Shown here: positions 16,973-60,190 of the stretch, one piece after another
How the letters are laid out: the number at the start of each line of letters is the position of its first letter
Position numbering within the stretch: position 1 is the stretch's first letter
NCBI RefSeq assembly: GCF_000266885.1
Contig: NC_018020.1
Span: 1,426,001 to 1,490,000 of the forward strand
Direction: 5' to 3'
Origin: Turneriella parva DSM 21527
GTDB taxonomy: Bacteria > Spirochaetota > Leptospiria > Turneriellales > Turneriellaceae
Length of the DNA: 64,000 nt
Notes under the pieces: model-generated
Told to the model about the DNA's origin: nothing
The model's database searches: none
What the model saw: the letters and a program-made list of their open reading frames with translations, nothing else
Program-made: the position numbers and the translations under genes

Positions 16973-17073
16973 CGGCTTGACATCCCCCTCGGGGTTTGTT
17001 TTTCTTGCCGACCCAACGCGCCCGGTCATCAAAAACATCTGGCTGCAAATTCGGGAAACTCAGGAGATTGAAC

Positions 17074-17487
17074 ATGAAAAAAACAGGTATGGCGGTCGTT
17101 GCAGCAGTTTTTATGCTGGCGGCTTGCGGCGGCAAGAATGCTGCCGTGAAAGATTTCGGCGAACTTTTTGACGGAGCGACGAAAGACCTTACGGCAATCG
17201 GCAACGATCTGAAAGAAGCCAAAGATTCTAAAGAAGTCGCCGCTGCTCTGAACAAGGTTTACGACGTCATGACAGCCATGAAGGCGAAGGGCGAAGAGCT
17301 CGAGAAGAAGCACGGCATGCGTGCGAAGGGCGAAATGCCACCAGAACTCAAGGCAAAAAGCGAAGCCTTTCAAGCCGCTGTCAAAGGTGTGTTTTCAGAC
17401 TCGCTGGTGAATGCCGTCAAGAAGCATGGTTCAAAACCAGAAGTTATGGAAGCGCTGAACAAAATCAAAAGCCTCAAAGGCGGCTGA
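17074..17487 (+). CDS. Small helical lipoprotein
   Basis: 137 residues from ATG 17074, chosen because AGGAG lies seven bases upstream and the signal peptide MKKTGMAVVAAVFMLAAC then begins normally; the longer frame from 16996 is rejected. Lipobox LAAC. The mature part is almost all charged helix (Lys/Glu/Ala), possibly coiled coil. No known family. A hairpin follows the stop. Confidence 0.75.
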   Translation: MKKTGMAVVAAVFMLAACGGKNAAVKDFGELFDGATKDLTAIGNDLKEAKDSKEVAAALNKVYDVMTAMKAKGEELEKKHGMRAKGEMPPELKAKSEAFQAAVKGVFSDSLVNAVKKHGSKPEVMEALNKIKSLKGG

Positions 17488-17549: not shown

Positions 17550-17576
17550 TTGACAGGCTCTCTTTGACTGAATAAT
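17550..17576 (+). promoter_or_regulatory. Possible promoter of the receiver/ATPase gene
   Basis: TTGACA (17550-17555), then a 15-base spacer and AATAAT (17571-17576), 13 bases before the ATG at 17590. The spacer is shorter than ideal. Confidence 0.4.
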
Positions 17577-17589
17577 CGCTGACAGTTTC

Positions 17590-18492
17590 ATGCAGAAACC
17601 ACCAGTTCTCATTATTGATCCCGATCTCGCGCTGCAAGAGATACTTGGTGAAATTCTGAAAAACCGTTTCAGAATCTTTGTTGCGAATAGCATCGATGAA
17701 AGCCAGAATATAATGCAGGGTGAAGACCCGCACCTCATTTTCATCGAGCTTCAGTTGCCGGGTGAAGACGCGATTGAATTCATCGAACGCTCGAAACGCA
17801 GCAAGTCGAATACGCAGTTCATCGTCATTACCGACAACGCGACGGTAGAAAACGCGGTTACCGCGCTGCGCCACGGGGCCCTCGACTTTTTGAAGAAGCC
17901 TTTTGAAATCGACGACATCGCGCGCATAGTTGAAAAGTTTTTCTCGCTCACGGCGAATCGTGAAGCTGACTACGATATCTATTCAAGCATCGTTGAAGAG
18001 GCGCGCACGTTTGAACTCGCGACCGATTTTTCGATCGTCTCGACTTTCATGTCAGAGATTATGCACATTATCTCGCGTTTCGCCCGCATCGACAAAAAAA
18101 CCACACTCACGATCAGACTCTCGCTTTACGAAATGCTCGTGAACGCGATGGAGCACGGCAATCTTGAAATTAACTATGACATGAAGAAAAACCTGCTCGA
18201 AGAAGTGATGGATTACCAGCGTTACCTGACCGATCGCGCGAATGAAGTACCCTTTAAAGACCGCAAGGTTCGGGTTTCGTACAAATTCGATACAAAATCC
18301 ATTTCTTTCACGATTACCGACGAGGGTAAAGGCTTTGATGTCAGCAAGGTACCAAACCCCCACGCGACCGAGAATCTCGAACGGCTCAACGGCCGCGGCA
18401 TCTTCATCTCACGCGTGAATATGACAAGTGTCACCTACAACGAAAAAGGCAACTCTGTGACGCTCTACAAAGAGCTGGCCCCACCGGCGTAA
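17590..18492 (+). CDS. Pseudo-receiver fused to RsbW-like ATPase domain
   Basis: 300 residues. Residues 5-118 form a CheY-like receiver with D10/D12, T81 and K103, but the phospho-acceptor position is Glu53 (FIELQLPGED) rather than Asp. Residues 145-297 form a GHKL ATPase of the anti-sigma/serine-kinase type, with the N box E181..N185..H189, the G1 box DEGKGF (244-249) and the G2 box GRGIF (268-272). A partner-switching regulator is likely, kinase or binder of an anti-sigma antagonist. The Glu suggests a fixed active-like state or control without phosphorylation. A SpoIIE-type phosphatase is encoded at 58223. Confidence 0.85.
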   Translation: MQKPPVLIIDPDLALQEILGEILKNRFRIFVANSIDESQNIMQGEDPHLIFIELQLPGEDAIEFIERSKRSKSNTQFIVITDNATVENAVTALRHGALDFLKKPFEIDDIARIVEKFFSLTANREADYDIYSSIVEEARTFELATDFSIVSTFMSEIMHIISRFARIDKKTTLTIRLSLYEMLVNAMEHGNLEINYDMKKNLLEEVMDYQRYLTDRANEVPFKDRKVRVSYKFDTKSISFTITDEGKGFDVSKVPNPHATENLERLNGRGIFISRVNMTSVTYNEKGNSVTLYKELAPPA

Positions 18493-58222: not shown

Positions 58223-60190
58223 ATGGCCATTTTCGCGCGTTCGATTGATAAGTTGGTAAAACCCGAATTTGTGCAGCATGTGCACGACACGCTCGTGCGC
58301 GAAATGTTCTGGAACGTGCGGCTTGCCATTGTTGGCCTTGTGCTCGCGATGCTGCTCTATTACGCGATGCTGATGATCGATTCAACGATTCAGCAGCACC
58401 TTCCCTGGTTTATCGCCGAAATGGTTGCTTCTGTGCCGATTCTGATTTTCTATTTTTTTGGCGAAAACTGGATCAAGAACATGCACACGCGCGCTCTCGT
58501 CGCGAATGGTCAGGCATTTTTCATCGCCCTTTTAATCGGAGTGGGGTTCTATTTTCAGTTACCTGAAATCAAGAACCAAAGTATTAAACTAACATCGTTT
58601 GCCCTCATTATCGGCGTTACGGGTGCTGCTGCATTTACGTTCGCCTGCAATCGTTTTACGTTTATACTCTTTGCGGTGCCCTGGCTTCTGCCGATTACAC
58701 TCTATTTCTTTTTCGGCGCGTCCGATGTCGGCTCAATTGCGCTCGGCGGCATGGTGATGCCTTATTTGGGCGTGCTGACTTTTCTTTGCCTTAAAGACTA
58801 TGAGCGCCGCGTCGAGCTCATTCGCTCAGAACTCAGTCTGCTCGAAGAGAAAGAGCAGGTGATCACAGCTTCGAAGAAACTCAAGACCAGTCTCGATCTC
58901 GTCAACGAACTCAAGACGCAGCAAGACGGTGACTATTACCTGACTTCTCTGCTTTTGAACCCGTTGGGAGTGAATGCCGTAGACGAAGGTCTCAACGTCG
59001 ATGTGGATTTCTTTACCAAACAGAAGAAGCACTTTGAGTTCAAAAATCAGAAACGCAATATCGGCGGTGATATTTCGATTGCGCATACCCTGCAGTTCGC
59101 AACGGGCACTTCGACTGTCTTTTTAAACGCCGACGCCATGGGTAAGTCAATGCAAGGTGCGGGTGGTTCGCTGGTCTTGGGTGCGGTCTTTCAGTCGATT
59201 GTCGAGCGCACGCGTCTGCAGACGCAGGTAGATCCCGAAAGCTGGCTGAAAGCTACCTTTCTCGAGCTACAGAAAGTTTTCGAAAGCTTTGACTGCTCGA
59301 TGCTCGTCTCTATCTATATCGCAGTGCTCGAGAATGTCAGCGGCAAACTCTATTACCTCAACGCTGAACACCCCTGGGGCGTGCTTTACCGCGACGGCAA
59401 GGCCGTGTTTCTGCAAAACCGCAGCTATTACCGTAAACTAGGTACGCCTGGTTTGCAAGATGACATCGCCATCGACCAGATTCAGCTGCAGCCCAACGAC
59501 GTCATCTTGCTTGGCTCAGACGGTCGCGATGATATCGCACTGCCCGGTCACGAGGGTAATGTGAGGGTCATCAACGAAGACGAGAGCATATTCTTGAAAC
59601 ACGTTGAAACCGCCGAAGGCAGATTAAATGAAATCTATGAGCTGATTGCGGCCTCGGGCGAGATTACCGACGACCTATCGCTTGTTCGCGTGAAGTATAA
59701 TTCAGCCAAAGACGTAACGCCTGCCAAAGAAAAGCAGACGGCGTCGGTTCTGCTCCGCGATGCGAAGCAGCTTGTTGATTCAGGTAAACACGCCGAAGCG
59801 ACACAACTGCTGCGCCGTGCGAACAACTCTTCGACTGCCGGGCCAAGGGCTCTGCGGGCCGCGCTGAATCTCGCCATGCAGATCAAAGAATACAGCCTTG
59901 CTCTGGCGATCGCCGAAAAACTACTCGCAGCGCAGGCCGACGACTTCGAAGTCATGTACCTTGCGGCATTCGCCGAGCGCAAGCTCAACCACCTGGACAA
60001 AGCATTGCACTATTCTGAGACGATCAGAAACGAAGACCCCAACACGAACGCCATGAACCTGAACCTGCTCGCAGAAATTTATATTGCTCTGCAAGACCGC
60101 GTCAAGGCAAACGTCGTACTAGACGAGATACTCACCGTAGACCCACTGAATGCCCGGGCACGGCGGCTGAGAGACGAATTACCGGGATAA
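58223..60190 (+). CDS. Membrane SpoIIE-type protein phosphatase with TPR tail
   Basis: 655 residues. Five or six N-terminal membrane helices (to about 195), a coiled linker (RVELIRSELSLLEEKEQVI), then a PP2C/SpoIIE domain about 265-490 (NIGGDISIAHTL, FLNADAMGKSMQGAG, LNAEHPWGVLYRDG, LLGSDGRDDI, ITDDLSLVRVKY) with the metal Asp residues, and TPR-like helices to the end. Dephosphorylates anti-sigma-factor antagonists in partner-switching. AGGAG before the ATG. Confidence 0.9.
   Translation: MAIFARSIDKLVKPEFVQHVHDTLVREMFWNVRLAIVGLVLAMLLYYAMLMIDSTIQQHLPWFIAEMVASVPILIFYFFGENWIKNMHTRALVANGQAFFIALLIGVGFYFQLPEIKNQSIKLTSFALIIGVTGAAAFTFACNRFTFILFAVPWLLPITLYFFFGASDVGSIALGGMVMPYLGVLTFLCLKDYERRVELIRSELSLLEEKEQVITASKKLKTSLDLVNELKTQQDGDYYLTSLLLNPLGVNAVDEGLNVDVDFFTKQKKHFEFKNQKRNIGGDISIAHTLQFATGTSTVFLNADAMGKSMQGAGGSLVLGAVFQSIVERTRLQTQVDPESWLKATFLELQKVFESFDCSMLVSIYIAVLENVSGKLYYLNAEHPWGVLYRDGKAVFLQNRSYYRKLGTPGLQDDIAIDQIQLQPNDVILLGSDGRDDIALPGHEGNVRVINEDESIFLKHVETAEGRLNEIYELIAASGEITDDLSLVRVKYNSAKDVTPAKEKQTASVLLRDAKQLVDSGKHAEATQLLRRANNSSTAGPRALRAALNLAMQIKEYSLALAIAEKLLAAQADDFEVMYLAAFAERKLNHLDKALHYSETIRNEDPNTNAMNLNLLAEIYIALQDRVKANVVLDEILTVDPLNARARRLRDELPG

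Follow-up and report, generated by a model that had tools for sequence, protein, structure and literature searches.

LvrC is a Leptospira response regulator of the Rec-anti-sigma type that was published in April 2026 and is phosphorylated at D53 (PMC13269768). It is encoded by lic11110 of Leptospira interrogans, is highly similar to RsbW and SpoIIAB, and has been deposited as PDB 9QIH, where the molecule is named SenB (PMC13269768). A released Rec domain has been proposed for the phosphorylated protein, and the effect of this release on the target is likewise a proposal (PMC13269768). A D56E substitution renders LvrB, a receiver-controlled kinase, constitutively active (PMC13269768). The lvrA and lvrB genes are reported to be pathogen-specific, with saprophytic Leptospira giving only matches of less than 30% identity (PMC5863495).

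Receivers that depart from the canonical pocket form a second body of work. A pseudo-receiver (PsR) is defined as a receiver lacking at least one of the residues DD1, DD2, D, T and K, and an aspartate-less receiver (ALR) as one lacking D (PMC12632262). Among ALRs the missing Asp is most often replaced by Glu (26%), and ALRs are enriched on the rarer outputs (PMC4395418). How bacterial pseudo-receivers are activated or inactivated was termed a mystery in a 2025 review (PMC12632262). The gene considered here, from Turneriella parva, brings these two subjects together.

A receiver and an RsbW-type ATPase in one chain

The gene lies in the window, the whole 64,000-nucleotide stretch of T. parva DNA that was analysed, and is an open reading frame with an ATG start (Table 1). 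It had been read from the DNA as a receiver with Glu at the phospho-acceptor position, fused to an anti-sigma-type (RsbW-like) ATPase; E53 and two Pfam matches, each above Pfam's curated cut-off, confirm this reading. The HATPase_c_2 domain carries the ATP-binding boxes expected of RsbW and SpoIIAB, for which we presume that the names N-box, G1 box and G2 box apply to the residue ranges in Table 1. A search of the genome (4,409,302 bases, two contigs) with the 300-residue protein gave 19 matches; apart from the gene itself none was full length, each covering the ATPase part or the receiver part only.

Table 1. Features of the gene and its upstream region, in window coordinates
Feature	Position	Strand	Remarks
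Putative promoter, TTGACA - 15 nt - AATAAT	17550..17576	+	ends 13 nt before ATG; hexamers by eye
LvrC-like pseudo-receiver/RsbW-type HATPase gene	17590..18492	+	300 aa; stop codon inside end coordinate
Receiver domain, residues 6-114	17605..17931	+	PF00072, E 3.3e-17
Acidic-pair codons D10 + P11 (DD1 kept, DD2 lost)	17617..17622	+	LvrC alignment
E53 codon (GAG), phospho-acceptor position	17746..17748	+	
T81 (T of Y/T switch)	17830..17832	+	
F100 to K103 (switch aromatic, conserved Lys)	17887..17898	+	
HATPase_c_2 (RsbW/SpoIIAB-type Bergerat) domain, residues 155-294	18052..18471	+	PF13581, E 7.7e-17
N-box region, residues 181-191	18130..18162	+	E181, N185, H189 invariant in 15/15 orthologues
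G1 box DEGKGFD, residues 244-250	18319..18339	+	
G2 box GRG, residues 268-270	18391..18399	+	

The best solved relative of the protein was 9qih (phmmer E 2.1e-42, residues 6-296). When LvrC was searched against the T. parva genome, this gene was recovered at E 1.5e-42 with 32% identity over 288/289 residues, and the second of the 37 matches was partial (1.1e-10). The reciprocal best match indicates that the protein shares its ancestry with LvrC and not with other Rec-HATPase families, and the architecture is of the LvrC type, with an N-terminal receiver, a C-terminal RsbW-type HATPase and an end-to-end alignment with LvrC. Over 288 or 289 LvrC residues, identity to LvrC was 40% for two homologues from outside the order to which T. 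parva belongs (L023 and L024) and 27-34% for 15 order members. An AlphaFold2 model, computed from an alignment of six rows, was of modest quality (mean pLDDT 72.6, pTM 0.51), and pocket geometry was therefore left unread. Its top fold match was again 9qih (Foldseek E 1.4e-23), with a whole-chain TM of only 0.48 and an rmsd of 16.6; the model does not recover the domain placement of the crystal.

In family f1, TTGAC occurs 33-40 nt upstream of the ATG in all 11 orthologues, a set drawn from five genera whose members are not independent; none of six others examined has it. This conservation suggests that the gene is transcribed from a promoter of its own, with a very short leader. The hexamer pair given in Table 1 is not listed by the consensus scan because that scan allows spacers of 16-18 nt only. 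No obvious Shine-Dalgarno sequence was seen by eye ahead of the ATG, and a leaderless or very short-leader transcript is possible.

The acceptor site across the order

Alignment with LvrC places the query residues IIDPD over FLDDE, so that position 11 (DD2), a direct Mg2+/metal ligand of receivers (PMC12632262), is Pro in the T. parva protein. The original prediction had taken D10 and D12 as the acidic pair. Both residues are present, but the pair occupies positions 10-11 and D12 follows it; T81 and K103 are retained as described. The canonical Asp53 and DD pair of LvrC-type regulators are thus replaced by E53 and P11, for which reason the protein was classed as an LvrC relative with a pseudo-receiver and not as a phosphorylatable response regulator.

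The search covered 18 genomes of the order and, at a threshold of E up to 1e-30, gave 16 orthologues, 15 of them full length and one (G002) truncated at a contig end. The two genomes without a match were G007, which is 54% complete, and G013, whose best match is a HATPase protein with an aligned part that starts after the receiver and was excluded from the count. Position 53 is Glu in 13 of the 15 full-length orthologues and in the G002 fragment, i.e., in 14/16, and Asp (codon GAC) in both genomes of genus g3. Asp in orthologues had been proposed as the sign of a strain-specific change; with only 2/16 carrying it, a strain-specific E53 mutation is ruled out. The canonical set of five receiver residues is incomplete in every full-length order orthologue (three of the five in 12, four in three), whereas it is complete in LvrC and in L023 and L024, the nearest homologues of the same class from outside the order. 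Judged by these aligned residues, the pseudo-receiver form of LvrC is therefore common to the whole order: by the published definitions 15/15 full-length orthologues are PsRs and 13/15 are ALRs. This count omits four proteins of family f5 (L029, L031, L032 and L035), which have Glu at the aligned column but are of a different, strongly degenerate type, and two sequences (L038 and L039) whose contigs equal those of L009 and L010 in length.

The remainder of the pocket shows both retention and loss. DD2 is Pro or Ser in 13/15 full-length orthologues, and in family f3 this position is still acidic (Glu); in genus g3, D53 stands alongside Pro11, DD2 not having been restored. Residues D10, K103, P104, F105, E181, N185, D244, G246, G248, G268 and G270 are invariant in 15/15, position 53 is acidic in 15/15, and the switch aromatic F/Y100 is likewise present in all. 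T81 is kept in 13/15 (Ala in one, Ser in one) and D12 in 14/15, the D+4 Pro is absent in 6/15, and T+1 is D, E, R or Y in 9/15. Position 53 is one of 27 among 120 receiver columns in which at least 13/15 residues are identical. The receiver drifts faster than the ATPase, with a mean pairwise identity of 0.466 vs 0.588.

The origin of Glu53 was examined in trees. With five outgroup sequences the Glu and Asp states required two changes and the order formed one group (97/94); with LvrC and one distant outgroup, two changes were again required and the order was supported at 85/79. Counting of changes alone cannot separate gain from loss of Glu, and the most parsimonious account has Glu gained once, on the stem of the order, and reverted once, in genus g3, so that, most simply, the receiver became a pseudo-receiver in the ancestor of the order. 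A single origin of Glu at position 53 is likely but not firm, because a wider tree that includes more distant, long-branched rows does not resolve how family f3 joins the other order members. In that tree LvrC falls with L023/L024 (100/99) and outside the order, five f6 proteins make up a separate group (100/100), and the placements of L025, L029/L032, L026 and L040 are weakly supported. Since DD2 is still Glu in family f3, loss of the phospho-Asp may have preceded loss of DD2.

Two further HATPase_c_2 proteins (L029:1252-2547 and L061:507-1799) have a C-terminal cyclic-nucleotide-binding domain. Their receiver-like N-terminus is barely recognised in L029 and unrecognised in L061, and the aligned acceptor column holds Glu and Asn, respectively.

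Genomic surroundings and candidate partners

The T. parva genome contains 33 SpoIIE, 22 STAS, 14 HATPase_c_2 (ten over the cut-off) and 3 Sigma70_r3 matches. None of the STAS, SpoIIE or Sigma70_r3 matches pairs by position with the gene, the nearest STAS match lying ~225 kb away. The original prediction had pointed to a SpoIIE-type protein in the window as a possible opposing partner. This protein (gene 58223-60190, domain 59108-59698) is one of 33 in the genome and lies ~40 kb away; with 0.48 SpoIIE domains expected per 64 kb, the probability of meeting at least one by chance is ~0.38. Its position is unremarkable and the scanned neighbours of the orthologues lack SpoIIE, and a role as dedicated partner is not supported. 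The protein itself is 655 aa in length, with a C-terminal TPR match and an N-terminus that looks hydrophobic by eye.

A Pfam scan of 20 proteins flanking orthologues in 13 genomes found no STAS, sigma, SpoIIE or HATPase match; 11 of these proteins matched some Pfam family and nine matched none. No conserved operon partner was found, as the genes directly upstream vary among genera and the neighbours differ across families. The upstream gene is MaoC-like in four genomes and lipoprotein-like in three genus g1 genomes including T. parva (by eye), and in G009, G012, G008 and G017 it encodes 637-647 aa, the G009 and G017 copies being without a Pfam match. Other family names among the flanking proteins are aminopeptidase P (family f3, one of two scanned) and a PDZ protein (family f5, one of two scanned). 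Downstream genes of 299 aa and 864 aa, which we take to be rsmH-like and clpC-like, have homologues in 10 of 21 regions, T. parva included. The gene directly upstream in T. parva (16996-17484) encodes a 163-aa, lipoprotein-like protein (by eye) without a Pfam match, with relatives in two of the 20 other regions compared, both from the same genus.

Two sites elsewhere in the genome (G000:C1, beyond the window) are candidate loci for classical partner switching: at 1962417-1963757 a SpoIIE match adjoins HATPase_c_2 and STAS matches, and at 3252015-3252828 STAS adjoins HATPase_c_2. Two further genome loci, guessed to be Rec-histidine kinases, were rejected by eye.

A receiver without its phosphosite: interpretation and comparison

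With Glu in place of the usual phosphosite, the control domain has probably lost its response to phosphorylation. The reading that we favor, at a probability of about 0.5, is that the pseudo-receiver of this LvrC lineage is fixed in a phosphorylation-independent state, probably like that of phosphorylated LvrC, with the ATPase/anti-sigma domain enabled. Phosphorylation of residue 53 by a histidine kinase would be abolished, and the carboxylate at this position would pair with Lys103 to hold the receiver in its fixed state. This state would most likely resemble phosphorylated LvrC with Rec released and would leave the ATPase/anti-sigma domain permanently enabled, with activity set by expression level and by the binding partner, either a sigma factor or a STAS protein together with PP2C phosphatases. 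Absence of canonical receiver phosphorylation is well supported at the level of sequence; phosphate mimicry and an enabled output are what we infer beyond it. The original prediction had raised the possibility of an ATPase that is locked on; such constitutive activation is plausible, but the loss of DD2 in 13/15, shared by the two D53 copies, makes the case weaker than first put. The constitutive D56E variant of LvrB provides a precedent, and the T+1 residues, unlike the Ala or Gly usual in receivers (PMC12632262), also count in favor. Lower conservation of the receiver than of the ATPase, the changes at T81 and the loss of the D+4 Pro count against this reading, as does the fact that the effect of released LvrC on its target is itself a proposal. 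D53 alongside Pro11 in genus g3 fits any acid at position 53 and not a strict phosphomimic.

That latter combination, with DD2 still lost, is also what would be expected if the pseudo-receiver were a structural or dimerisation module in which acid 53 forms a salt bridge with Lys103 and mimics no phosphate, leaving a plain RsbW-type kinase/anti-sigma with a dead input. ChxR, which has a natural Glu and retains DNA binding after its change to Asp or Ala (PMC4395418), is a precedent for such a module and counts against mimicry, and the invariant acid at 53, D10 and K103 agree with it. The dimer face of LvrC includes I86, I90, L93 and F100, with position 102 (Ile) likewise on the interface (PMC13269768); the T. 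parva equivalents of the first four are V86, V90, L93 and F100, and these positions are hydrophobic in 14, 15, 15 and 15 of 15 orthologues. Position 102, however, is Lys in T. parva and variable among orthologues, and a purely structural role leaves the retention of Glu over Asp in 14/16 unexplained; we regard this explanation as somewhat unlikely. A ligand, a protein partner or a modification at a different residue might move the Y/T switch in place of Asp phosphorylation. This would account for the largely kept switch residues, and alternative inputs have been proposed for aspartate-less receivers as a class (PMC4395418), but the genes next to the orthologues yielded no candidate partner, and such sensing appears distinctly improbable. 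Phosphorylation at another acid, e.g., the widely kept D12, or at D53 in genus g3, is very improbable, given that the metal-binding DD2 (PMC12632262) is replaced by Pro or Ser in 13/15, both D53 copies included.

Extended to the whole order, the favored reading would describe a hard-wired LvrC switch, i.e., a natural D53E, DD2-less, permanently Rec-released and input-independent anti-sigma/serine kinase under dose and partner control; we put this forward tentatively, as a possibility somewhat short of an even chance. The LvrC lineage extends beyond Leptospira, into the order of a free-living spirochaete, and offers a natural series within one orthologous family: canonical forms (LvrC, L023 and L024) vs three order variants, namely Glu with an acid at DD2 (family f3), Glu without DD2 (11 of the 13 remaining order members) and, in genus g3, Asp without DD2. 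This series and the solved family structure make the question of whether a natural Glu mimics phosphate directly testable.

The T. parva protein shares with LvrC the same Rec and Bergerat layout, a near-whole-length alignment and the numbering of acceptor 53 and switch 100; LvrC, a substrate of LvrB, carries the pair D10-D11 together with D53, whereas the T. parva protein has Pro11 and Glu53. It resembles RsbW and SpoIIAB in its HATPase_c_2 family match but differs in carrying an N-terminal pseudo-receiver, with no STAS match closer than ~225 kb and no Sigma70_r3 match nearby. We know of no RsbW-like HATPase output among the characterised bacterial pseudo-receivers RitR, ChxR and FrzS. The protein is like the described ALRs and PsRs in lacking the phospho-Asp and DD2 (PMC4395418, PMC12632262), and the term HATPase does not occur in the main texts of these two papers. 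LvrC and aspartate-less receivers were each already known; an aspartate-less LvrC is apparently undescribed, as we found no description in a literature search whose coverage left out most subscription journals. A further relative, from an Aminicenantes MAG, is a single polypeptide made up of a receiver, an HATPase_c_2 domain and a SpoIIE phosphatase (L040:4992-6689). This protein shares the LvrC-like Rec and HATPase_c_2 domains with that of T. parva, but its acceptor column holds Asp and, with the SpoIIE phosphatase fused on, it is 566 aa long.
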